Source of the DNA: Marinifilaceae bacterium
GTDB taxonomy: Bacteria > Bacteroidota > Bacteroidia > Bacteroidales > Marinifilaceae
DNA: 48,907 bases
Direction: 5' to 3'
Assembly: GCA_016936255.1 (NCBI GenBank)
Contig: JAFGYE010000118.1
Location: forward strand, 1-48,907
The number at the start of each line of letters is the position of its first letter. Positions within the stretch are counted from its first letter, which is position 1. This document shows positions 8,965-22,713 of the stretch, piece by piece. Below the pieces are notes generated by a model. The model made no database searches. It was given only the letters and a program-made list of their open reading frames with translations, and was not told the DNA's origin. Made by a program: the position numbers and the translations under genes.

Positions 8965-9360
8965 ATTACGAAATTTAAATTACGAATGAAGAAAGATAAT
9001 ATTGTACAACAAAAAAGTTATCAATTTGCAGTTCGAATAGTGAAAATCTGTAAGTATTTACAAGAAGAAAAAAAGGAATATATATTATCCAAACAGTTGT
9101 TACGATCTGGAACTTCAATTGGAGCTAACATTGAAGAAGCAATTGGAGGACAAAGTGAGAAAGATTTTTTTGCCAAGCTAACAATATCGTATAAAGAAGC
9201 AAGAGAAACACATTATTGGATCAGGTTGCTTGGTGATACGGGTTATCTCACAAAAGAAGAAAGTCAAAGTCTTCTAAGTGATACTGATGAATTGCTTAGA
9301 ATAATTGGAAGTATCCAGAAAACGATGAGGGTACGTAATTCGTAATTGAAAATTCGTCAT
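8965..9360. repeat. Inverted-repeat-bounded cassette carrying four-helix-bundle gene 1
   Basis: A 27-nt arm at 8965-8991 matches the reverse complement of 9334-9360 at 22 of 27 positions. In a second register, 13 bases are exact (ATTACGAATTACG at 8958-8970 against CGTAATTCGTAAT at 9334-9346). The arms are built from iterated ATTACGAA words. The start codon (8986) and stop codon (9343-9345) of the gene lie inside the arms. Mobility is inferred. Confidence 0.6.
8986..9345 (+). CDS. Four-helix-bundle protein (S23 / 23S rRNA intervening-sequence protein family)
   Basis: A 119-aa, charged, all-helical protein. The central motif LLRSGTSIGANIEEAIGG followed by KDFFAKLTISYKEARETHYWIRLL is diagnostic of the S23/Avd-like four-helix-bundle family. 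Members occur inside 23S rRNA intervening sequences and as solitary genes; solitary members have no settled function. Here the gene is not in rRNA but between maf and the S46 peptidase, fully enclosed by an imperfect inverted repeat. A second, divergent member with the same arrangement is at 16412. Confidence 0.88.
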   Translation: MKKDNIVQQKSYQFAVRIVKICKYLQEEKKEYILSKQLLRSGTSIGANIEEAIGGQSEKDFFAKLTISYKEARETHYWIRLLGDTGYLTKEESQSLLSDTDELLRIIGSIQKTMRVRNS

Positions 9361-12787: not shown

Positions 12788-13117
12788 TAAATAGAGAAAA
12801 AAATAAGTAATTGAGTTCTTGTATTCTGCACTTGTATGCGAATATAACCAAAAAAAACTTGTCAGTTTGATTCTAAGACCTACAAGAATTTTGAACAATG
12901 GTATTGACATAAAATGCTTGCTGATCTATGATTGTATTGAAGTGTTGAAATTGCAATTTATCATGATCTGTTTTGTCTTTATTGAGTTATTTAGATTTAA
13001 TATGTATTTTATTTTTTTGTATCTATTCCGTTAGATATCATTTATTAATCCTACTCAAATACTTATCTTAGCGCAATCGGAATAGAATAATTGGTAAACA
13101 TAAGTTGGTGCTGTGAT
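12788..13117. other. Divergent intergenic region upstream of the hydrogenase operon
   Basis: 330 bp, very A/T-rich, between usp (minus) and the first DRTGG gene (plus). I see no perfect TAnnTTTG box. TATCTTAG near 13066 (plus) and a TATATTCG-like box near 12840 (minus) are one mismatch from consensus and could serve as -7 elements. Short open frames here (for example 12819-13034) have no credible protein features. Confidence 0.35.
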
Positions 13118-13465
13118 ATGGTGAAAGTGGCTGATCTAGTTGATAAACTTAATGCAAGTGTTATTTGTGGAAAAGATGATCTGAATCAGGACATAAGTTT
13201 TGGTTTTGCATCAGACTTAATGAGTGATGTACTAACTTTGGATACAGATAACCTGCTGTTAATAACAGGGTTAAATAATCTTCAGACAATTAGGACATCG
13301 GAAATGTCAGACATTTCTTACATTTTATTTGTGAGGGATAAGAAGGTCTCACAGGAAATGAAAGACTTGGCTTGTGAGAACAACATTACACTAATTGAAT
13401 GCAGTTATTCAATGTTTAAAGCATGTTCTATTTTGTGTGAAATGGGTTTAGAACCAGTATATTAA
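13118..13465 (+). CDS. DRTGG-domain protein (first copy)
   Basis: A 115-aa protein starting MVKVADLVDKLNASVICG, in the DRTGG-like fold found beside [FeFe]-hydrogenase and phosphotransacetylase/CBS proteins. It carries the pattern of an N-terminal strand/helix, FGFASDLMSDVLTL, then LLLITGLNNLQTIRTSEM. The second copy at 15263 has the same order (GGYTSDLLSDVMGN, VWVTLQTHKNIMAI). Function unknown; a ligand-sensing or adaptor role is inferred from the company of kinase-like and hydrogenase-like genes. The frame is open from 13091, but the ATG at 13118 aligns with the paralog's start. First gene of the operon; the next gene begins 5 bp after its stop. Confidence 0.75.
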   Translation: MVKVADLVDKLNASVICGKDDLNQDISFGFASDLMSDVLTLDTDNLLLITGLNNLQTIRTSEMSDISYILFVRDKKVSQEMKDLACENNITLIECSYSMFKACSILCEMGLEPVY

Positions 13466-13470
13466 AGGGG

Positions 13471-13884
13471 ATGATATTTACATTTTTTATTGAGGGGGGC
13501 AATTTTTCTAAAGCAGGAACAGCTTCTAGTGAAGTTAAAAAAATATTGAAGCAATTAAATGTTGATTCGAAGATAATTAAACGAACAGTGGTTTCATTGT
13601 ATGAGGCTGAAGTAAACGTGGTCGCACACGCTTTCGAAGGAGATATGAATGTTGAAATTTTTCCGGATAAAATAATTGTCAGGATCGAAGATAAAGGACC
13701 AGGGATACCTGATATTGATAAGGCAATGGAAAAAGGTTTTTCTACAGCCACACCTAAAGTCCGGGAAATGGGTTTTGGTGCCGGTATGGGTTTGCCGAAT
13801 ATAAAAAAGAATTCAGATCAGATGATTATTAGTAGTAAAGTTAATGTTGGAACCAAATTAGAAATCGTTAACTATCTGAAATAA
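13471..13884 (+). CDS. RsbW-like ATP-binding protein (anti-sigma-type GHKL kinase)
   Basis: A 137-aa stand-alone HATPase domain. The N box is EAEVN (45-49), G1 is DKGPGIPD (74-81), and the G2 loop is GFGAGMGLPNIKK (about 100-112). This is the serine-kinase/anti-sigma architecture of RsbW/SpoIIAB rather than a full histidine kinase, since there is no dimerisation His domain. It lies 7 bp before the sensory-type hydrogenase. In established [FeFe]-hydrogenase clusters of anaerobes such ATPases are thought to pass on the redox or H2 signal; the target here is unknown. Confidence 0.8.
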   Translation: MIFTFFIEGGNFSKAGTASSEVKKILKQLNVDSKIIKRTVVSLYEAEVNVVAHAFEGDMNVEIFPDKIIVRIEDKGPGIPDIDKAMEKGFSTATPKVREMGFGAGMGLPNIKKNSDQMIISSKVNVGTKLEIVNYLK

Positions 13885-13891
13885 AAAGAAG

Positions 13892-15259
13892 ATGGAGAAG
13901 GCTCATTTTTATCATGCACTAAAAGTAGTTGAGGAGGTTTGCATTGGTTGTACGCATTGTATGAATGTGTGTCCAACTTCGGCAATTCGTGTGAAAAATG
14001 GAACTGCCGATATTAATAAAAATGCCTGTGTTGATTGTGGTGAGTGTTTGAAATGTTGTCCGGTAAATGCTATTATTGTTGAGCAGGATGATTTCACTCA
14101 GATCTTTCATTTTAAGCAACGGGTTGCTCTGCTTCCAACCGTACTTCTGGGACAATTTCCAGATGATATTTCCGAAAAGCAAATTTATTCTGTTATCCAT
14201 GACTTAGGGTTTACCCATGTATATGAGGTGGATGAAACTTCCGATATTCTTACCGAAGCCACTAAAACTTACATGAGTAAGCGTCATCAGGAACGTCCTT
14301 TTATTTCCAGCTTTTGTCCCGCAATCGTTCGCTTGATTCAGGTGAAGTTTCCTGCTTTGGTAGAACATATCGTTCATTTAAAACCAGTTATTGATATTTC
14401 TGCTTTGTTCTATCGTAAAAAGCTTAAAAATGAAGGGTTTTCCGACGATGATATTGGGATATTTTATGTGACACCTTGTGCGGCCAAAATTGCTGCAGTG
14501 AAGAGTCCTGTTGGTGAAGAAAAATCTTTTATTGATGGGGTTATTAATATGGATTTTATTTACAATAAAGTATTGCTAAGTATCAAACGGAATAAATCAG
14601 AAGGAATTAAGTATGAGCTGAATAAATACATGTCCAGGAGAAGTATTGGTTGGACATTAACAAATGGAGAAGCATCACAGTATTCAGGCAGATGTCTGGC
14701 TATTGATGAAATTCATAATGTGATTGAGGTGCTGGAGAAGTTGGAGAATGAAGAAATTAAGGACGTCGATTTTTTGGAGTTGCGCGCCTGTGATCATTCT
14801 TGTGCAGGAGGTGTTTTAACCACAGAAAATAGATTTTTAGCTATAGAGCGATTACGGAAAAGAGGGGATTGGTACCATCGGAATCGGCCTATTATTCTTG
14901 AAGAGAAAGAAATTGAAAAGTATCGCCCTTATTTATTGGAAAACATTTCAATTAGGAATATTGAACCTCGGTCAATTTTAAGTTTGGATACTGATATGAT
15001 GGAGGCGATGAAAAAAATGGCCAAGATCAATCGCATCTTGAAAGTTTTACCAAGTATAGATTGCGGCGCTTGCGGCGCGCCACGTTGTCAAGCCCTGGCT
15101 GAGGATGTGGTGCAGGGAAAAGCCAAGATGACACAATGCGTTTTCCTTCAAAAGATGTTGACCAAAGAAGGATTAATTACTCCTCAGGAATCGTTTGATA
15201 TCTCAGAGAATACCTGGGGGGTAAAAAGATTTGAAAAGAAAAATATTAACGATCATTAG
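13892..15259 (+). CDS. Putative sensory [FeFe]-hydrogenase with N- and C-terminal Fe-S clusters
   Basis: A 455-aa protein. Residues 17-27 and 46-56 carry two 4Fe-4S motifs (CIGCTHCMNVC, CVDCGECLKCC). The hydrogenase-type H-cluster domain follows with altered motifs: L1 is SSFCP (ligand Cys142 kept, proton-shuttle Cys replaced by Phe141), L2 is TPCAAK (Cys196, Thr instead of Met, no Glu further on), L3 is ACDHSC (Cys300, Cys304, Arg instead of Met). All four H-cluster Cys ligands remain. The C-terminus has CxxCx4Cx16C (391, 394, 399, 416), the extra 4Fe-4S domain. This matches the group C/D sensory [FeFe]-hydrogenase description (for example HydS) and not a catalytic enzyme. It lies between kinase-like, DRTGG and PHP genes, upstream of the catalytic hydABC. 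Confidence 0.85.
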   Translation: MEKAHFYHALKVVEEVCIGCTHCMNVCPTSAIRVKNGTADINKNACVDCGECLKCCPVNAIIVEQDDFTQIFHFKQRVALLPTVLLGQFPDDISEKQIYSVIHDLGFTHVYEVDETSDILTEATKTYMSKRHQERPFISSFCPAIVRLIQVKFPALVEHIVHLKPVIDISALFYRKKLKNEGFSDDDIGIFYVTPCAAKIAAVKSPVGEEKSFIDGVINMDFIYNKVLLSIKRNKSEGIKYELNKYMSRRSIGWTLTNGEASQYSGRCLAIDEIHNVIEVLEKLENEEIKDVDFLELRACDHSCAGGVLTTENRFLAIERLRKRGDWYHRNRPIILEEKEIEKYRPYLLENISIRNIEPRSILSLDTDMMEAMKKMAKINRILKVLPSIDCGACGAPRCQALAEDVVQGKAKMTQCVFLQKMLTKEGLITPQESFDISENTWGVKRFEKKNINDH

Positions 15260-15262
15260 ATA

Positions 15263-15598
15263 ATGAAAGTACAAGACATAGTTGATAAGCTGGGATTAAA
15301 AGTATGCAGTGGATCTGCAGGTTTGGATCGCGAAATTGAAGGAGGGTATACTTCTGACCTTTTGAGTGATGTTATGGGAAATGCAGATGAAAATCAGGTT
15401 TGGGTTACTTTGCAAACTCATAAAAATATTATGGCAATTGCCTCTTTAAAGGAGTTGGCGGCAATAATCCTTGTAAAAGGATACGAACCGGAAACTGATG
15501 CTGCAGAACAAAGTAATTTAGAGGGAATTCCTATTCTGTCTTCAGAGGAGGAAGCTTTTGAATTAACAGGGAAATTGTTCGGGCTATTAAAGAAGTAA
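15263..15598 (+). CDS. DRTGG-domain protein (second copy)
   Basis: A 111-aa paralog of the protein at 13118, beginning MKVQDIVDKLGLKVCSG and containing EGGYTSDLLSDVMG and IPILSSEEEAFELTGKLFG. It starts 3 bp after the sensory hydrogenase stop, so it is translationally close. Having two DRTGG proteins around the sensory hydrogenase suggests either a heterodimer or separate ligand sensors; this is inference. Confidence 0.78.
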   Translation: MKVQDIVDKLGLKVCSGSAGLDREIEGGYTSDLLSDVMGNADENQVWVTLQTHKNIMAIASLKELAAIILVKGYEPETDAAEQSNLEGIPILSSEEEAFELTGKLFGLLKK

Positions 15599-15609
15599 AT
15601 GAAATTGAA

Positions 15610-16356
15610 ATGAAAGTTTTTCGAGCTGATTTGCATACTCATACTGTCCTGTCTCCATGTGGAGATTTGGAAATGAGCCCTGTGAATATTGTTCGGATTG
15701 CAAAAGAACGTGGCGTTGACATTTTGGGAATAACAGATCATAATTCAACTTTGCATGCAGCTTTAATCAAGCAGTTGGCAGAAAAAGAAGGAATTATGGT
15801 GATGATGGGAGCAGAGGTAACTACCAAAGAAGAAGTTCATTGTTTGTGCTTTTTTGAAACAGAACATTTGCTTTCTGATTTTCAAATTTATCTTGATCAG
15901 CATTTGCCTAAGATTCCAAATGACACAAAATACTTTGGATACCAGGTTGTGGTAAACGAAGAAGAGGAGATTGTGCAGGAAATAGATAATTTGTTGATAT
16001 CAGGCTTGAATCAGGGAATCAATGAGGTTGAACAGAAAGTTCATGAACTTCAAGGTTTGTTTATTCCAGCTCATATCAATAAGACGCAAAATAGTATTAT
16101 CAGTCAACTGGGTTTTTTGCCAACAGATTTGAAAGTGGATGCTTTGGAGATTTCAATGCATACCACGAAAGATGAGTTTTTAAGTAAGAATAAATATCTG
16201 AAAGGGTATACTTTTATCCAAAGTTCAGATGCACATTATATTGATAATATAGGCAATGTATGCAGCCAATTTATAATGGAGGATGCAAGTTTTTCTGAAA
16301 TTAGAAAAGCACTTAGAGGAGAAGAAGGAAGAACAGTTGAGTTGGAAAAAAGGTAA
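15610..16356 (+). CDS. PHP-domain phosphoesterase-like protein
   Basis: A 248-aa protein with PHP metal motifs: DLHTHT (His9, His11), ITDHN (Asp43, His44), MGAEV (Glu69), a His in FIPAHI, and the late SSDAHY. These bind three metals in family members (polymerase/histidinol phosphatase superfamily, YciV-like nucleotidases). The substrate is unknown. It is part of the signalling block in front of hydABC, a neighbourhood also known for clostridial and thermophile [FeFe]-hydrogenases. The C-terminus (GEEGRTVELEKR) runs up to the left arm of the second four-helix-bundle cassette. Confidence 0.85.
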   Translation: MKVFRADLHTHTVLSPCGDLEMSPVNIVRIAKERGVDILGITDHNSTLHAALIKQLAEKEGIMVMMGAEVTTKEEVHCLCFFETEHLLSDFQIYLDQHLPKIPNDTKYFGYQVVVNEEEEIVQEIDNLLISGLNQGINEVEQKVHELQGLFIPAHINKTQNSIISQLGFLPTDLKVDALEISMHTTKDEFLSKNKYLKGYTFIQSSDAHYIDNIGNVCSQFIMEDASFSEIRKALRGEEGRTVELEKR

Positions 16357-16366
16357 AAGGTTTAAA

Positions 16367-16778
16367 TCAGCAATTGGCGTTTGGCCTTTAGTTTTTAGCA
16401 AAAAAAAAAGAATGAGAAATTTCAGGAAGTTAAATGTTTGGCAAAATGGAATATCAATAGTTAAAAGGATTTATCGATTGGTGGAGTTGCTTCCTGAGAA
16501 TGAAAAATATGGATTGAGAAGTCAAATATGTAGGGCTGCTATTTCTGTTCCTTCTAATATTGCGGAAGGATGTGGTCGAAATACTGATGCTGACTTTAGA
16601 AGATTTCTTGATATTGCATTGGGCTCTTTGTTTGAATTGGAGACTCAGCTAATTATTATGGTGGAACTTAAATATGTCAATGAAGTAAAAATGAATGATT
16701 TAATTGATCTTATTCATCAGGAAGAGAAGATGATCAATAGTTTAATAACAAAGCTAAAAGCCAATTGCGAACAGCTAA
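16367..16778. repeat. Inverted-repeat-bounded cassette carrying four-helix-bundle gene 2
   Basis: Arms at 16367-16391 and 16754-16778 match as inverted repeats at about 18 of 25 positions, including TTGGCCTTTAG against CTAAAAGCCAA (10 of 11). The 9-mer GCAATTGGC occurs in the left arm and its complement GCCAATTGC in the right, offset by eight bases. The arms are made of iterated GCTAAAAGC/GCCAATTGC words. This repeats the layout of the 8965-9360 cassette with different words. Confidence 0.55.
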
Positions 16779-16786
16779 AATCTTAA
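16412..16786 (+). CDS. Four-helix-bundle protein (S23 family), second copy
   Basis: A 124-aa helical protein with the family core LRSQICRAAISVPSNIAEG and the FRRFLDIALGSLFELETQL segment. It belongs to the S23/intervening-sequence family but to a different subgroup from the gene at 8986. The frame is open from 16283; the ATG at 16412 (MRNFRKLNVWQNG) is the standard start for the family, and upstream codons overlap the PHP gene and the repeat arm. It sits in the middle of the hydrogenase operon in the same direction, so it need not stop read-through. Its stop lies 5 bases before the probable start of the next gene. Confidence 0.88.
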   Translation: MRNFRKLNVWQNGISIVKRIYRLVELLPENEKYGLRSQICRAAISVPSNIAEGCGRNTDADFRRFLDIALGSLFELETQLIIMVELKYVNEVKMNDLIDLIHQEEKMINSLITKLKANCEQLKS

Positions 16787-16791
16787 TTAAA

Positions 16792-17331
16792 TTGAAAGAC
16801 CTGTCTTTACATATAATGGATATTATCCAAAATTCAGTAAGAGCTGAAGCGTCCAATGTTGAATTGGAGATCAGGGAGGATTTGGAAAATGACATTTATT
16901 CAATTTCTATAAAAGATGATGGGTATGGAATGTCGGAAGAAGTTCTGAGCAAAGTATTGGATCCTTTTTTCACCACCAGAACCACTCGTAAAGTAGGACT
17001 GGGTTTATCGCTGTTAAAGCAAAGCGCAGAGCAAACAGGAGGCAAATTGGAAATTCATTCCAAAGAAGGAGTTGGAACAGAACTTCAGGTTTTGTTTTCT
17101 CATAAAAATATTGATAGACCCGTTATTGGTGATATTGCCGGAGTTATTGTGTTGTTAGTAAGTGCAAATCCAAATATGGATTTTGTGTATAAGCATCACA
17201 CAACGAAGGGTGAGTATATTTTTGATACAAAAGAAGTAAAAGAAGTGCTGGAAGATGTTTCGGTAACAGACCCAAATATTATAAAGTATTTAAAGGAATT
17301 AATAAACGAGAACCTAAACACAATAATATAA
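16792..17331 (+). CDS. HATPase-domain signalling protein (histidine-kinase-like ATPase)
   Basis: A 179-aa protein with a GHKL ATPase domain: N box DIIQNSVRAEA, G1 DDGYGM, FFTTR lid, G2 GLGLSLLKQ. The remaining C-terminal part (GDIAGVIVLLVSANPNMDFVYKH...) has no recognised domain. Family members in this cluster start MKDLSLHILDIAQNS. Here the corresponding codon is TTG (16792), preceded by the right arm of the four-helix-bundle cassette; another TTG at 16765 is also in frame. It has no dimerisation/phosphoacceptor His domain, so signalling to a partner is inferred. Confidence 0.78.
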   Translation: MKDLSLHIMDIIQNSVRAEASNVELEIREDLENDIYSISIKDDGYGMSEEVLSKVLDPFFTTRTTRKVGLGLSLLKQSAEQTGGKLEIHSKEGVGTELQVLFSHKNIDRPVIGDIAGVIVLLVSANPNMDFVYKHHTTKGEYIFDTKEVKEVLEDVSVTDPNIIKYLKELINENLNTII

Positions 17332-17357: not shown

Positions 17358-17750
17358 ATGGCAAAAGTTAAATCCCTTGCAGATCTGAAGAGAATGAAAG
17401 AAGAGCTTCAGTCGAAGATGGATCTTAGGGAGAAAAGCAACGATCCGGAAGGCCTTGTACAGATTAAAGTTGCAATGGCTACATGTGGAATTGCCTCTGG
17501 AGCTAAAGAGGTGATGGAATTCCTTATTGAAGAAACAGCGAAAAGAGGAATTCGGACTGTAGTTACCCAAACCGGATGTATGGGATATTGCTATGCAGAA
17601 CCTACAATTGAGGTTCAGATTCCAGGTAAAGAGCCCATCGTTTTTGGCGATGTAGATATTAAAAAAGCTGACCAAATTGTTGAAAAATACATTAAGAATG
17701 GTGAATTGGTCGATGGAATAATACCTGTAAACTACAAAACTCTAGACTAA
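17358..17750 (+). CDS. (2Fe-2S) ferredoxin-like subunit
   Basis: A 130-aa thioredoxin-fold 2Fe-2S protein. Cluster ligands are visible in ATCGIASGA and TGCMGYCYAEP, the NuoE C-terminal/NuoF N-terminal type pattern. It lies 20 bp before the NuoF-like HydB and belongs to the electron-carrier part of the NADH/ferredoxin hydrogenase. The same small gene precedes hydB in many HydABC-type operons. Confidence 0.83.
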   Translation: MAKVKSLADLKRMKEELQSKMDLREKSNDPEGLVQIKVAMATCGIASGAKEVMEFLIEETAKRGIRTVVTQTGCMGYCYAEPTIEVQIPGKEPIVFGDVDIKKADQIVEKYIKNGELVDGIIPVNYKTLD

Positions 17751-17770: not shown

Positions 17771-19564
17771 ATGGAAAAGTATAAAATGCATATTCTTATT
17801 TGTGGAGGTACCGGTTGCCGGGCTTCTGCCAGTGAGGCTATTCAAAACAATTTGCAGGATGCAATTAAAGCCAAAGGACTTGAAGATGAAGTACAGGTTG
17901 TAATGACCGGTTGCTTCGGATTTTGTGAAAAAGGTCCTATTGTTAAAATTCTTCCGGATAATACTTTCTATGTGGAAGTGAAACCTGAAGATGCAGAAGA
18001 GCTAATCGAAGAGCATATTGTAAAAGGTCGTAAAGTGATGAGATTGCTTTATGTTGATCCGGAGAACAAAGAGGTGATTAGTGATTCGAAACATATGGGA
18101 TTTTATAAAAAACAAATTCGAATTGCGCTTCGAAATTGCGGTTTTATTAATCCTGAAAATGTTGATGAATACATTGCACGAGATGGTTATGCAGCTTTGG
18201 GTAAGTGTTTGGCTGAAATGACTCCGCAGACGGTAATCGACGAGATTAAAGAATCTGGATTACGAGGACGGGGAGGAGGAGGATTTCCAACAGGTTTAAA
18301 ATGGGAATTTGCTTCTAAAAATGAGGCTGATCAAAAATATGTAGTTTGTAATGCTGATGAGGGAGATCCGGGAGCATTTATGGATCGTTCCATCCTGGAA
18401 GGTGATCCTCACTCAGTTTTGGAGGCTATGGCTATTTGTGGTTACACAATGGGAGCCGATAAAGGTTTGATTTATATTCGTGCTGAGTATCCTTTGGCGA
18501 TTACCCGATTAAAAGTTGCGATTAAACAAGCCCGCGAATACGGTTTGTTGGGCAGCGATATTTTAGGTTCCGGATTTAATTTTGATGTTGAAATGCGTTA
18601 CGGAGCCGGAGCATTTGTTTGTGGTGAAGAAACGGCTCTGATTCACTCGATGGAAGGTCTTCGTGGTGAACCTACCGTTAAACCTCCTTTTCCTGCTGAA
18701 TCAGGGTACAATGGAAAACCAACGAACGTAAATAATGTTGAAACATTTGCGAATATTCCTGTTATCATTAATAAAGGAGCAGGTTGGTTCAATAAAATTG
18801 GAAGTGAAAAATCAAAAGGTACCAAAGTATTCGCATTGGCCGGAAAAATCAACAATGTTGGTTTAATTGAAGTGCCAATGGGAACTACTCTTCGTGAAGT
18901 GATTTACGAAATTGGTGGTGGCATTAAAGATGGTAAAAAATTCAAAGCTGTTCAAACAGGTGGTCCTTCAGGAGGATGTTTAACAGAAAAGCATTTAGAT
19001 ACTCCTATCGATTTTGACAATTTGATTGCTGCAGGTTCTATGATGGGATCGGGTGGTATGATTGTTATGGATGAGGATGATTGTATGGTATCCATGGCTA
19101 AATTCTATTTGGAATTTACTGTTGAAGAATCTTGTGGTAAATGTACACCATGTCGTGTTGGTAACAAGCGTCTTCACGAATTGTTGGATAAAATCACTTT
19201 AGGAAATGGAACTAAAGAAGATCTTGATCTATTAAGAAACTTAAGTACTGTAATTAAGGATACTTCTCTTTGCGGATTGGGACAAACATCTCCAAATCCA
19301 GTTCTTTCAACACTAGAGAATTTCTATGATGAGTATATTTCTCACGTAGAAGATCACAAGTGTGCAGCAGGACAGTGTAAGGCTTTGATGCAATATGTAA
19401 TTGATCCTGAATTGTGTGTAGGATGTACTTTATGCTCACGTAACTGTCCTGTTGATTGTATAGCAGGAGAACGTAAGGAAGCGCATATTATTGATGCATC
19501 AAAATGCATTAAGTGTGGTGCGTGTATGGAGAAGTGTAAGTTTAATGCAATAAGCATACAGTAA
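17771..19564 (+). CDS. hydB: HydB: NuoF-like flavoprotein subunit of the NADH-linked [FeFe]-hydrogenase
   Basis: A 597-aa subunit that binds FMN and NAD(H) and is the site where electrons from NADH and ferredoxin are combined or split. Domains in order: 2Fe-2S thioredoxin-like domain (Cys11, 16, 48, 52), Nuo51 FMN loop GLRGRGGGGFPTGLKW (about 163-178), NADH-site acidic stretch NADEGDPGAF, SLBB region, N3-type cluster ESCGKCTPCR, and two C-terminal 4Fe-4S motifs (CVGCTLCSRNC, CIKCGACMEKC). This matches HydB of trimeric electron-bifurcating enzymes. The stop codon TAA is immediately followed by the hydA Shine-Dalgarno. Confidence 0.93.
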   Translation: MEKYKMHILICGGTGCRASASEAIQNNLQDAIKAKGLEDEVQVVMTGCFGFCEKGPIVKILPDNTFYVEVKPEDAEELIEEHIVKGRKVMRLLYVDPENKEVISDSKHMGFYKKQIRIALRNCGFINPENVDEYIARDGYAALGKCLAEMTPQTVIDEIKESGLRGRGGGGFPTGLKWEFASKNEADQKYVVCNADEGDPGAFMDRSILEGDPHSVLEAMAICGYTMGADKGLIYIRAEYPLAITRLKVAIKQAREYGLLGSDILGSGFNFDVEMRYGAGAFVCGEETALIHSMEGLRGEPTVKPPFPAESGYNGKPTNVNNVETFANIPVIINKGAGWFNKIGSEKSKGTKVFALAGKINNVGLIEVPMGTTLREVIYEIGGGIKDGKKFKAVQTGGPSGGCLTEKHLDTPIDFDNLIAAGSMMGSGGMIVMDEDDCMVSMAKFYLEFTVEESCGKCTPCRVGNKRLHELLDKITLGNGTKEDLDLLRNLSTVIKDTSLCGLGQTSPNPVLSTLENFYDEYISHVEDHKCAAGQCKALMQYVIDPELCVGCTLCSRNCPVDCIAGERKEAHIIDASKCIKCGACMEKCKFNAISIQ

Positions 19565-19569: not shown

Positions 19570-19578
19570 ATCTTGAAT

Positions 19579-21351
19579 ATGGAAAAAATGATCAAATTAA
19601 CCATTGATAAAAAACAAGTAGAAGTACCTCAGGGAACTACTATTTTGGAAGCAGCCAAAGGAATCGGTGTTGATATCCCAACTCTTTGCTATATGCATCT
19701 TGGCGATATGGGAATTGAACACAAACCTGGTGGATGTCGAATTTGTGTTGTTGAGGTGGAAGGCCGTCGTAATTTGGCACCATCTTGTAACTCGAAGTGT
19801 GAGCAGGGTATGGTGATTCATACTCACAACATGAGAGTGTTAAATGCCCGTAAAACTGTAATGGAGCTGATGCTTTCAGATCACCCATTCGATTGTTTGG
19901 TGTGCGCGAAATCAGGAAACTGTGATTTGCAGTCAACAGCACAACAATTAGGCGTTCGGGAATTGCATTATAAAGGTGAGCAATCAACCTATAAAGTTGA
20001 TTATTCCCCATCAATTATTCGCGACATGGACAAATGTATTATGTGTCGCAGATGTGAAACAATGTGTAACGATGTGCAAACAGTAGGAGCTCTTTCTGCT
20101 GTAAACAGAGGTTTTAAGTCTGTTGTTGCTCCGGCATTCGAAATGGATTTAGAGAAATCAACCTGTACTTACTGCGGACAGTGTGTTGCAGTTTGTCCTA
20201 CAGGAGCTCTTACCGAAAAAGACCATACCAATCAACTAATTAGAGATCTTGCAGATCCTAAGAAAACTGTTGTTGTTCAAACGGCTCCCGCTGTGCGTGC
20301 AGCTCTTGGTGAAGAATTTGGAATGGAACCAGGAACTTTGGTTACAGGAAAAATGGTTTCAGCATTGCGTCAGTTAGGATTTAACAGCGTTTTCGATACT
20401 GATTTTGCTGCTGATCTTACCATCATGGAAGAGGGAACAGAACTATTGGATCGCTTAAAAAGACATTTAGATGGAGATAAAGATGTTAAACTACCAATTT
20501 TAACCTCTTGTTGTCCGGGATGGGTGAACTTTTTTGAGCACCATTTCCCAGAGATGAAAGATATTCCATCAACCGCACGTTCTCCTCAGCAAATGTTTGG
20601 CCCTATTGCTAAAAATTATCTGGCGAATGAGATGGGAATTAAACGTGAAGACATGATCGTTGTTTCCATTATGCCTTGTCTGGCTAAAAAATACGAATGT
20701 CAGCGTGATGAGTTTAAAGTTGACGGCGATCCTGATGTTAATTATTCAATATCAACCCGTGAATTGGCAAACTTGATAAAGCAGGCTAATATGGATTTAA
20801 AAACTCTTCCAGATGAAGAATTTGATAATCCACTTGGTGAATCTACTGGTGCCGGTGTAATTTTTGGTGCTACGGGTGGTGTTATCGAGGCGGCTGCTCG
20901 TACTGCTTATGAAGTTTACACGGGAAAAACATTAGAGAATGTGAATTTTGAGGCTTTACGTGGTATGGAAGGCATTCGAAGTGCTACAGTCGATTTTGAC
21001 GGACTGGATGTTAATATTGGTATTGCTCATGGTTTGGGAAATGCCCGTAAACTTCTTGAAGATATCCGTGATGGTAAATCGCAATATCATGCAATTGAGA
21101 TCATGGCTTGTCCTGGAGGTTGTATTGGTGGTGGTGGTCAGCCATTGCACCATGGTGATTCTTCAATCTTGAAAAAACGTGCAGCAGCTCTTTATCGTGA
21201 AGATGAAGGAAAAGCTATTCGTAAGTCACACGAGAATCCATACATCATTAAATTGTATGAAGAGTTCTTGGGTAAGCCATGCGGAGAATTATCTCATAAA
21301 TTATTGCATACTCATTATTTCGATAAGAGTAAGGATATTGAGGTTGAATAG
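19579..21351 (+). CDS. hydA: HydA: catalytic [FeFe]-hydrogenase subunit (NADH/ferredoxin-dependent type)
   Basis: A 590-aa cytosolic H2-producing or -oxidising enzyme. Clusters in order: 2Fe-2S (Cys37, 53, 56, 70), His-Cys3 4Fe-4S (His102, Cys106, 109, 115), two 4Fe-4S (153/156/159/163 and 196/199/202/206), then the H-cluster with L1 TSCCPGW (309-315), L2 MPCLAKKYE (365-373) and L3 EIMACPGGCIGGGGQ (Cys511, Cys515). All catalytic residues, including the proton-shuttle Cys311, are present. ATG 19579 is chosen over TTG 19573 because AAGGAGG at 19563-19569 lies 9 bases upstream of it. Partners are HydB and HydC in the same operon. Confidence 0.95.
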   Translation: MEKMIKLTIDKKQVEVPQGTTILEAAKGIGVDIPTLCYMHLGDMGIEHKPGGCRICVVEVEGRRNLAPSCNSKCEQGMVIHTHNMRVLNARKTVMELMLSDHPFDCLVCAKSGNCDLQSTAQQLGVRELHYKGEQSTYKVDYSPSIIRDMDKCIMCRRCETMCNDVQTVGALSAVNRGFKSVVAPAFEMDLEKSTCTYCGQCVAVCPTGALTEKDHTNQLIRDLADPKKTVVVQTAPAVRAALGEEFGMEPGTLVTGKMVSALRQLGFNSVFDTDFAADLTIMEEGTELLDRLKRHLDGDKDVKLPILTSCCPGWVNFFEHHFPEMKDIPSTARSPQQMFGPIAKNYLANEMGIKREDMIVVSIMPCLAKKYECQRDEFKVDGDPDVNYSISTRELANLIKQANMDLKTLPDEEFDNPLGESTGAGVIFGATGGVIEAAARTAYEVYTGKTLENVNFEALRGMEGIRSATVDFDGLDVNIGIAHGLGNARKLLEDIRDGKSQYHAIEIMACPGGCIGGGGQPLHHGDSSILKKRAAALYREDEGKAIRKSHENPYIIKLYEEFLGKPCGELSHKLLHTHYFDKSKDIEVE

Positions 21352-21464: not shown

Positions 21465-21944
21465 ATGGCAAAAATTAAATTAGCAAAATCCAAAGTGGAT
21501 AAACTTGTGGAGATTTGCAAATCATTTGATAATGAAGGAAGCGAGTTGATTAATGTGCTTCATAAAGCTCAGGAGACCTTTGGGTATCTTCCAGCTGAAG
21601 TTCAGGAAATCATTGCCCGCGAATTGAACGTTTCTGTTGCTCATGTGTATGGTGTAGTTACATTCTATTCATTTTTCTCGATGGTACCCAAAGGTGAATT
21701 CCCAATTTCTATTTGTATGGGAACAGCTTGTTATGTTAGAGGTGCTGAGAAGGTGTTGGAAGAATTCAAACGTCAGTTGAGTGTTCCTGTTGGCGAAACT
21801 ACCGAAGATGGTAAATTCTCAATAAGCTGTTTGCGTTGCGTGGGAGCTTGCGGACTAGCTCCGGTTGTTACTATCGGAGAACGTGTCTACGGACGTGTTT
21901 CAGCAGGGGATGTAGCTGATATTATTAAAGAATATCAAAAATAG
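21465..21944 (+). CDS. hydC: HydC: NuoE-like 2Fe-2S subunit of the [FeFe]-hydrogenase
   Basis: A 159-aa homolog of the 24-kDa complex I subunit. The N-terminal helical part (ELINVLHKAQETFGYLP) and the thioredoxin-fold 2Fe-2S domain with CMGTACYVRGA and CLRCVGACGLAP give the four Cys ligands. It completes the HydABC trimer. In many organisms hydC is the first gene; here it is the last, separated from hydA by a 113-bp palindromic spacer and followed by a strong terminator. Confidence 0.92.
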   Translation: MAKIKLAKSKVDKLVEICKSFDNEGSELINVLHKAQETFGYLPAEVQEIIARELNVSVAHVYGVVTFYSFFSMVPKGEFPISICMGTACYVRGAEKVLEEFKRQLSVPVGETTEDGKFSISCLRCVGACGLAPVVTIGERVYGRVSAGDVADIIKEYQK

Positions 21945-21993: not shown

Positions 21994-22713
21994 TTAATCC
22001 CAAATTAGTTCCTGCTCTTTTAAACTTTTGAAGAAGGAAGAACGGAAAGTATCACCAATAGGAATTCTTTCCTGACCAATAACGACTCTGTTTTTATCTA
22101 TGATGTCGATATGCTCCAATGATACAATATAGGATTTGTGAATTCTTAGAAATCTATCTGCAGGTAGATAAATACTCAGGTTTTTCATGGTTTGCAGAGT
22201 GATAATTTTCTTGTTAATAGTCTGAATCCATATATAGTCCTTCATTCCTTTAAAGAATAATACCTCATTAAATTTCACTTTCTCTATCAACGAGTTATTC
22301 TTAACAAAGAAAAAATCATTCTTCTTAATTTCAGGTTTTGGATGTGCAGTTTTGCCTTGTTTTTGGATGTAAATATTGTTTAAAATCTGAATGAATTTTT
22401 CAAATGAAACAGGTTTCATAATGTATTCAAAAGCATTAAGGTAATGATCCTTATATTTATATGAGGCACATCTCATACTTATAATAACCTCCGGTTTTTG
22501 GATGTTGAATTCACTCCAATCAATTTTTTGTTGTTGAGCAAATTCCAGATCCATAAAAATTAGATCTGTTTTATTCTCGTTGATATAAGTTTTAGCTTGA
22601 TTTAAATCTGAAAAACAAGCTTTGATGTTTAGGTAGGGAATGCTTTCTCCATATTTTTTAAGGGATTCAATATGAGGTAAGTCACGGTCAAGAATAATAC
22701 TTTCTATTATCAT
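21994..22713 (-). CDS. LytTR-family response regulator
   Basis: A 239-aa receiver plus LytTR DNA-binding protein. The receiver has a slightly unusual acidic pocket (Asp9-Arg10-Asp11), phospho-acceptor Asp55 in IFMDLEF, Ser79 and Lys100 (IMKPVSF). The LytTR domain (about 135-235) shows FFVKNNSLIEKVKFNEVLFFKGMKDYIWI and the FLRIHKSYIVSLEHI segment. No partner histidine kinase is adjacent. It converges on the hydrogenase operon with only the terminator between. A perfect 15-bp dyad lies 41-77 bp upstream of its start and may be its own operator. Confidence 0.88.
   Translation of the reverse strand: MIIESIILDRDLPHIESLKKYGESIPYLNIKACFSDLNQAKTYINENKTDLIFMDLEFAQQQKIDWSEFNIQKPEVIISMRCASYKYKDHYLNAFEYIMKPVSFEKFIQILNNIYIQKQGKTAHPKPEIKKNDFFFVKNNSLIEKVKFNEVLFFKGMKDYIWIQTINKKIITLQTMKNLSIYLPADRFLRIHKSYIVSLEHIDIIDKNRVVIGQERIPIGDTFRSSFFKSLKEQELIWD

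Follow-up and report, generated by a model that had tools for sequence, protein, structure and literature searches.

A conserved gene block upstream of hydBAC

The DNA studied here (the window) is the whole 48,907 nucleotides of contig JAFGYE010000118.1 from a Marinifilaceae bacterium, a marine anaerobe. Positions 13118 to 17331 hold a block of signaling-type genes around HydS, a putative sensor resembling the [FeFe]-hydrogenases, and the genes of a HydABC-type hydrogenase follow. An earlier note on the window had named six genes in this block, and the list of open reading frames (ORFs) and Pfam placed all of them where it had put them, but an ORF at 16406-16786, between the PHP and second GHKL genes, had been overlooked. 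The genes follow one another in this order:

13118 to 13465, + strand: DRTGG protein a (DRa); PF07085, 28.4 bits (cut-off 25.2); alternative TTG start at 13091
13471 to 13884, + strand: SpoIIAB/RsbW-like GHKL ATPase, candidate Ser/Thr kinase; HATPase_c_2, 35.5 bits
13892 to 15259, + strand: HydS, 455 aa, group D [FeFe]-hydrogenase-like putative sensor; PF02906, 82.5 bits
15263 to 15598, + strand: DRTGG protein b (DRb); PF07085, 23.1 bits, under the cut-off of 25.2; fold by model
15610 to 16356, + strand: PHP-domain putative phosphoesterase; PF02811, 34.8 bits
16406 to 16786, + strand: four-helix 23S_rRNA_IVP ORF at the PHP/GHKL junction; PF05635, 130.6 bits
16792 to 17331, + strand: second GHKL ATPase; HATPase_c, 64.3 bits; start at 16765 in the ORF list
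17358 to 17750, + strand: thioredoxin-like [2Fe-2S] protein (Trx) of the hyd unit; PF01257, 21.8 bits, under the cut-off of 24.8; precedes hydB in synteny lists
17771 to 19564, + strand: HydB, NuoF-like subunit; ORF named by eye and synteny
19573 to 21351, + strand: HydA, catalytic group A [FeFe]-hydrogenase; NF040763, 902.9 bits (cut-off 765)
21465 to 21944, + strand: HydC, NuoE/HoxE-like subunit; nuoE_fam, 122.1 bits (cut-off 142.4), and HoxE, 163.6 bits (cut-off 224)

The block and the hyd genes likely form one operon, since the intergenic gaps are short and all the genes are on the same strand. HydA exceeded the NF040763 cut-off with HydB and HydC adjoining it, which places the enzyme with the NADH-dependent group A6 HydABC hydrogenases, and we infer from its subunit make-up that it is electron-bifurcating. 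A LytTR response regulator gene at 21994-22713 is convergent with HydC and also adjoins the operon in loci L051, L071, and L072. The host genome (4.71 Mb, 120 contigs) has six PF02906 matches: two group A-type proteins (contigs C65 and C74), one protein (C63) that passes the monomeric group B1 model, two group C-like proteins (C16), and HydS.

By comparison with relatives, the IVP ORF is an insertion and not a fixed member of the block. The element spans 16357-16791, from the PHP stop to the GHKL start, and carries, close to either end, the arms of a 19-nt inverted repeat (84%; 16370-16388 and 16750-16768). The same-genus locus L051 is without it, and there the PHP and GHKL genes overlap as ATGA; judged against this locus, the likely GHKL start is the TTG at 16792. 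Copies were also found in L052, L055, L071, and L077. RNA folding of the element did not go beyond that of shuffled sequences (z -1.13). In L114, an IVP match lies between the HydB and HydA genes, and a second ORF of the window (8986-9345) resembles a four-helix bundle/IVP protein by eye.

HydS and the group D [FeFe]-hydrogenases

HydS is almost certainly a group D (M2e) sensory-type [FeFe] protein. It has two N-terminal 4Fe-4S (Fer4) motifs, the H-domain PF02906, and a C-terminal FeS domain (PF04060, 46.8 bits), the latter being the extra 4Fe-4S domain that the earlier note had pointed out. A fold search with HydS matched hydrogenases, and its structure model was of only moderate quality (pLDDT 74). 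The Pfam scan gave no PAS match in HydS at E 0.05, and HydS had neither the C-terminal PAS domain nor the place in the C clade that mark group C. A 34-row tree put the 13 rows of group D on one side of a branch at 100/100, and groups A (100/100), C (98/97), and B (99/97) were likewise separate; the rows x_Butyriv and x_Subdo2 were assigned to no group. HydS was therefore not drawn to unrelated Fe-S proteins, and the tree and the fold search both agree with its earlier description as a sensory-type [FeFe] protein. Because the tree contains no characterized group D sequence, the group D name rests on the domain plan and on the residues listed below, with the positions of CpI and of TamHydS, the group D protein of Thermoanaerobacter mathranii:

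14312 to 14317, + strand: Phe141 (at CpI C299) and Cys142 (C300 ligand), by alignment; L1 SSFCPA
14471 to 14488, + strand: Thr194 (M353), Cys196 (C355), and Lys199 (K358), by alignment; L2 TPCAAKIAA
14669 to 14671, + strand: Glu260, presumed equivalent of TamHydS E252, matched without the TamHydS sequence
14783 to 14803, + strand: Arg298 (at M497), Cys300 (C499), and Cys304 (C503), by alignment; L3 LELRACDHSC
15062 to 15139, + strand: C-terminal 4Fe-4S motif, Cys391, 394, 399, and 416; PF04060, 46.8 bits; kept in 106/106

The alignment bore out that HydS keeps all four H-cluster cysteines and has Phe for the proton-shuttle Cys and Thr and Arg for the two Met. The L2 Glu is lacking, as the earlier note had said, with Ala202 aligned to CpI E361, but Glu260, Asp272, and Glu296 sit at positions aligning with the path proposed for group D, and HydS is therefore not simply without a proton path.

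Conservation was counted in 106 distinct HydS sequences, with the window included and duplicates removed; nearly all came from genomes of the same order or from records with Bacteroidales or Bacteroidetes in the title (not so for L137 and L148). The four H-cluster cysteines, Thr194, Arg298, Glu260, Asp272, and Glu296 were invariant, as were the eight counted cysteines. Position 141 was Phe in 99 sequences, Ser in four, and Tyr in three, and position 199 was Lys in 104 and Gln in two. An invariant Arg where a Met frames the diiron site is unusual; in more distant rows, this position held Asp (the Clostridia row) and His and Arg (two Bacteroidota rows). The group D Glu was present in 11 of the 13 D rows, being absent from the distant rows L167 and L168, and in none of the 21 other rows. 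This Glu has been reported to be exclusive to group D.

In the excerpts of the TamHydS papers (PMC8163306, PMC10407848, PMC13104023), TamHydS is like HydS in having no PAS domain, a C-terminal Cx2Cx4Cx16C motif (the spacing of Cys391/394/399/416 fits it), no shuttle Cys, the group D proton-path Glu, and a gene upstream of a bifurcating hydrogenase. The two proteins differ at CpI positions 299, 353, and 497, which are Phe, Thr, and Arg in HydS and Ala, Ser, and Leu in TamHydS (PMC8163306, PMC10407848; excerpts). The group C sensors TmHydS, R. albus HydS, and HfsB, as far as the partial sources describe them, share with HydS the sensory type, the loss of second-sphere residues, and an operon with hydrogenase genes, but they carry PAS domains and are split from group D by the tree.

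We have moderate confidence that HydS would be matured with an H-cluster. In G055 (99% complete), HydS is the single PF02906 match, HydA gave no match, and the maturase HydF was found at 474.7 bits, over its cut-off. This speaks indirectly against the note's refuting case of a protein that cannot be matured. According to the part of PMC8163306 that was available, TamHydS can be loaded with a synthetic cofactor and then shows activity.

The partner proteins

DRb was assigned to the DRTGG fold by structure match, its AlphaFold model (pLDDT 93.7) giving TM scores of 0.84/0.78 against the DRTGG structure 2ioj, and DRa by Pfam only. The DRa motif DLMSDVL was kept at 97% or more in 109 rows. This count, like the other motif-row counts (109 and 105) and the PP2C-pair counts below, includes the five duplicates between collections among loci L037-L150. 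Both proteins retain the Ser of the (S)DL[LM]SDV[ML] motif; it is a possible phosphosite and may alternatively be structural. The DRTGG domains of HPr kinase and of the CBS-DRTGG pyrophosphatase have the same fold, and those of the block differ in being stand-alone proteins of 111-115 aa with this motif.

The RsbW-like ATPase has the N-box ExxxN of the GHKL family. Glu45, Asn49, DxGPGI, and GFGAGMGL were kept at 97% or more (109 rows), and with both N-box residues and the motifs for ATP binding conserved, the ATPase is probably active. SpoIIAB/RsbW kinases were its best sequence matches and its best match in a PDB profile search (SpoIIAB 1til, 45.4 bits), with the N-box Glu and Asn in common. 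In contrast to those systems, its scores fall below the curated cut-offs (52.1 of 135 bits for spIIAB, the best NCBIfam model, and 23.4 of 145 for RsbW), and DRTGG proteins stand in the place of STAS. No STAS antagonist or sigma factor was found among the block's ORFs by the ORF list and Pfam scan, and the two short STAS frames of the genome are on contigs C84 and C32.

In the PHP protein, H9, H11, D43, H44, E69, H77, H155, D207, and H209 were kept at 97% or more (105 rows), and we take these nine positions to be the metal-binding ligands of the family. Its nearest PDB sequence was EndoQ (58.8 bits), which does not name a substrate. The linkage of the second GHKL gene is ambiguous: in loci where the sensor and hyd units are separated, it stays beside Trx-HydB (L043, L045, L063, and L158) or accompanies the sensor genes (L070, L117, L145, and L160).

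Distribution and linkage in relatives

HydS orthologs (at least 44% identity) were found in 57 of 96 sampled relatives, which are related genomes and not independent. HydS and the RsbW-like gene occurred together in 56 of the 96, HydS alone in one, the RsbW-like gene alone in one, and neither in 38. In the lone-HydS genome, G001, HydS lies at a contig end; both G001 and G059 are truncated at contig ends. Window-type HydA (at least 68% identity) was present in 59 genomes and accompanied HydS in 54 of the 57 HydS genomes, the other three being G047 and G051 (64% complete) and G055 (99% complete).

Adjacency was counted over loci chosen for holding HydS, with duplicates removed and only where the locus had room. 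Beside HydS were found RsbW in 103/104, DRa in 99/100, DRb in 100/104, and PHP in 97/99 loci; GHKL was within 5 kb in 79/88 and window-type HydA within 9 kb in 63/72. Departures from this arrangement include L141 and G055, with DRa-RsbW-HydS and no adjoining DRb or PHP, L146, with a permuted order, and L134, with no DRa or RsbW seen upstream. The one fusion candidate, a HydB in L087 with a C-terminal Fer4 stretch that matches HydS as well, proved not to be a fusion.

The earlier note had called the block's presence in Bacteroidota little described; the idea that Bacteroidota are unusual was not supported. In a scan of named genomes, at least 559 of 587 pattern matches encoded relatives at E 1e-3, and the best 80 of the 559 were nearly all titled Bacteroidales or Bacteroidetes. 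Labilibaculum filiforme, also of the Marinifilaceae, has the nearest HydS of a named relative among the matches listed (92% identity). With the block so common in Bacteroidales-type genomes, Bacteroidota are no exception. A phylum-wide sample gave a match in only 4 of 296 genomes, including the window's own and one placed in group C by the tree, and the family therefore seems concentrated near the window's order.

A related block in Clostridia, as the note had stated, was seen in one record (L158, Subdoligranulum), where the core is in order at 34-42% identity, RsbW and HydS are separated by a 240-aa ORF, and the HydC-GHKL-Trx-HydB-HydA unit is divergent; the occurrence in Clostridia rests on this record and one published table (PMC3561251). 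Two scans of viral contigs gave no Clostridia relatives. In Table 6 of PMC3561251, itself seen in excerpt, Athe_1292, Csac_1857, TTE0887, Cphy_3798, and Cthe_0335 are M2e genes whose locus numbers precede by five that of the first gene in a bifurcating hydrogenase cluster. These loci are likened to the block by gene numbers only. According to the excerpt of PMC3608648, the bifurcating genes of all Thermoanaerobacter are preceded upstream by a histidine kinase and a hydrogenase resembling group D.

A Rex gene directly precedes DRa on the same strand in L104, L105, L107, L108, L112, L113, L125, L149, and L192, the family being checked for L192 and L112 only. At L192 (7570-10784), the order is Rex-DRa-RsbW-DRb-PHP-GHKL without HydS. 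Rex control of the window's operon was rejected, as an operator scan of the window with an assumed consensus gave three matches, none near the block, versus 6.7 expected.

A [NiFe]-linked version of the block

In two distant Bacteroidota genomes (G267 and G275, of the same phylum and another class by their labels), the genes after the block encode HydC, Trx, HydB, and a frame of 592 or 595 aa, in HydBC-HdrA-MvhD-[NiFe] operons (loci L167, L168, L193, and L194). In these frames, the N-terminal Fe-S region of HydA is joined to a region resembling HdrA; they lack PF02906 and score 428.6 and 429.9 bits against NF040770 (cut-off 1100). Further downstream in G267 are FlpD/MvhD, the [NiFe] small and large subunits, and HypB- and HypF-like genes. 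Upstream of the G267 block are a malate dehydrogenase gene, an FAD/Fer4 protein resembling by eye the N-terminal part of HdrA, and genes that match HdrB and HdrC below the cut-offs. In G275, MvhD and the small subunit were named by eye and the large subunit by Pfam. The HydS proteins of these operons keep the Cys ligands and the Lys. The block therefore accompanies H2-linked HydBC complexes even when the hydrogenase is of the [NiFe] type.

Group C partners and PP2C phosphatases

The earlier note had proposed looking for an antagonist or a PP2C elsewhere. A PP2C does lie near the block in some relatives and on contig C16 of the host genome, and the two short STAS frames are on C84 and C32. On C16, two group C-like proteins with PAS matches are each followed by a SpoIIE-type PP2C. 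Such a pair was found upstream of the block on the same strand in 10 of the 89 loci with at least 4.5 kb upstream, duplicates kept (eight within 0.5 kb of DRa, L040 at about 1 kb, and L128 at about 2.5 kb), and convergent downstream in five more. PP2C was present in 47 of 57 HydS genomes versus 4 of 39 without HydS. Of the 10 HydS genomes without PP2C, five were under 90% complete, and the others (G010, G021, G031, G055, G094) were 96-99% complete; an obligate phosphatase partner was therefore not accepted as a general rule. Elsewhere in the host genome, C84 carries a STAS gene close to a PP2C, and C82 encodes an RsbW-like protein with a better score. A group C HydS followed by a SpoIIE-type PP2C also occurs in R. 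albus and Monoglobus.

One type of these partners, gC1, is represented by 14 rows including the host's own. The PP2C-paired proteins of this clade are:

L048, 5547 to 7427; also L040, L082, L085, L098, L101, L103, and L109
continued in L116, L120, L121, L127, L128, and L130

The H-cluster Lys was missing in 13/13 rows covering L2, and L3 was one residue short in 12 rows and had no cysteines in the other two, L128 and L130; the L128 protein lost the L1 and L2 cysteines as well. The gC1-type clade may consist of hydrogenase-fold sensors without an H-cluster. The gC2-type protein of the host genome retains the H-cluster residues. Group C neighbors in L137 and L140 were too short and were left out of the residue table.

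Discussion

These findings can be explained by a model in which HydS is a group D [FeFe]-hydrogenase turned into a sensor of H2, or of the H2/H+ redox state. Binding of H2 or reduction at its H-cluster would change the shape of HydS, and this change would be read by the two DRTGG proteins together with the SpoIIAB/RsbW-like ATPase in the role of a Ser/Thr kinase and switch, which would then set the amount or activity of the neighboring HydABC-type hydrogenase, with PHP and GHKL as accessory enzymes of the same route. We give an even chance to the proposal that HydS senses H2 and gates a kinase/DRTGG switch through which this hydrogenase is regulated; within it, we infer the insertion of the H-cluster in vivo, H2 as the signal, hydABC as the target, and phosphorylation of a DRTGG or other partner by the ATPase. 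The earlier note had spoken of a complete relay. A conserved signaling-type operon before hydBAC is indeed present, but the membership of GHKL is ambiguous, and neither an antagonist nor a transcription factor is a constant member of the block.

Several observations weigh against the proposed H2 switch. A search for fusions among the block genes gave no real one. G086 keeps DRa-RsbW-DRb-PHP-GHKL without HydS, with 15 bases between the neighbors of HydS, and 5 of the 59 genomes with window-type HydA have no HydS. The gut commensal Parabacteroides distasonis (L160) has the block and GHKL but lacks hydABC in the 8 kb seen to either side; the L160 record is labeled a plasmid, yet it holds gyrA. 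Both [NiFe]-linked HydS proteins are without the group D Glu. G058, 1 of 19 PF02906-free genomes, has HydF over the cut-off, and HydF alone is therefore no proof that HydS is matured. In the excerpt of PMC13104023, the C-terminal cluster of TamHydS did not respond to H2, and in that of PMC8924675 some HydAB(C) enzymes use NADH without bifurcation.

One alternative, which we consider rather doubtful, is that a two-armed switch has its kinase arm in the block and its phosphatase arm in the SpoIIE-type PP2C and PAS-bearing group C proteins, with one phosphoprotein shared by both. The pairs on C16, those upstream in 10/89 loci and convergent in five more, and the distribution of PP2C (47/57 vs. 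4/39) are in line with this, but 10 of the 57 HydS genomes lack PP2C, five of them at 96-99% completeness, the adjacent group C partner is without the H-cluster Lys in 13/13 covering rows, and the genome also has the STAS/PP2C genes of C84 and the better-scoring RsbW-like protein of C82. It is unlikely that HydS is an Fe-S redox sensor with a hydrogenase fold and no working H-cluster. The change of the two Met to Thr and Arg and of the shuttle Cys to Phe would fit, as would the group C-derived proteins near the block in relatives, which lost H-cluster residues and kept the domain. Against this are the four H-cluster cysteines in 106/106, Lys199 in 104/106, the HydF retained in G055 with HydS as its sole detected client, and the activity of TamHydS with a synthetic cofactor (PMC8163306, in excerpt).

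The block could instead be a nucleotide-signal module, in which DRTGG binds a nucleotide, PHP degrades it, and HydS is one of several inputs. The fold of DRb, like that of the DRTGG domains of the regulated pyrophosphatase and HPr kinase, the conserved PHP metal-ligand positions, and the retention of the other genes in G086 speak for this. We find it improbable, since G055 and L141 keep DRa-RsbW-HydS with no adjoining DRb or PHP and no gene for synthesis of a signal nucleotide was seen in the conserved block. Finally, the close association of the block with HydABC, and with HydBC in the [NiFe]-linked operons, would also be expected of an assembly or quality-control helper for HydABC with no signaling role. 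The P. distasonis block with no hydABC in the stretch seen, G055 with no HydA match, and the five genomes with window-type HydA and no HydS make this very unlikely.

Returning to the H2-sensing switch, a wider version of it can be proposed tentatively, although we lean against it in full: the block would be a transferable H2-sensing partner switch without a histidine-kinase phosphorelay, in which a SpoIIAB/RsbW-like kinase under the control of an [FeFe]-type sensor acts on DRTGG instead of STAS, which serves bifurcating [FeFe] or [NiFe] H2 enzymes, and which in many lineages has an opponent in a PP2C, itself driven by a protein of hydrogenase descent that lost its H-cluster.

No description of a DRTGG/RsbW/PHP block was found in the literature searched, which leaves out most subscription papers, and group D hydrogenases appear there, in the excerpts available, with no PAS domain and no known signaling partner. 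One unread paper there, PMC10102598, mentions both DRTGG and hydrogenase. A hydS of the Marinifilaceae is reported under group C1 in the available part of PMC9765461 (2022), which may mean either HydS or the group C genes. New here are the co-occurrence of the RsbW-like gene with HydS (56/57), the HydF of G055, the [NiFe]-linked block, and the PP2C/group C pair upstream in 10/89 loci. The conserved neighbors of HydS provide a short list of candidate partners for signal transfer from group D hydrogenases. The [NiFe]-linked block and G055, in which HydS is the sole detected [FeFe]-type protein, offer natural tests. The control of such hydrogenases bears on the release of H2 by anaerobes in sediments and guts.

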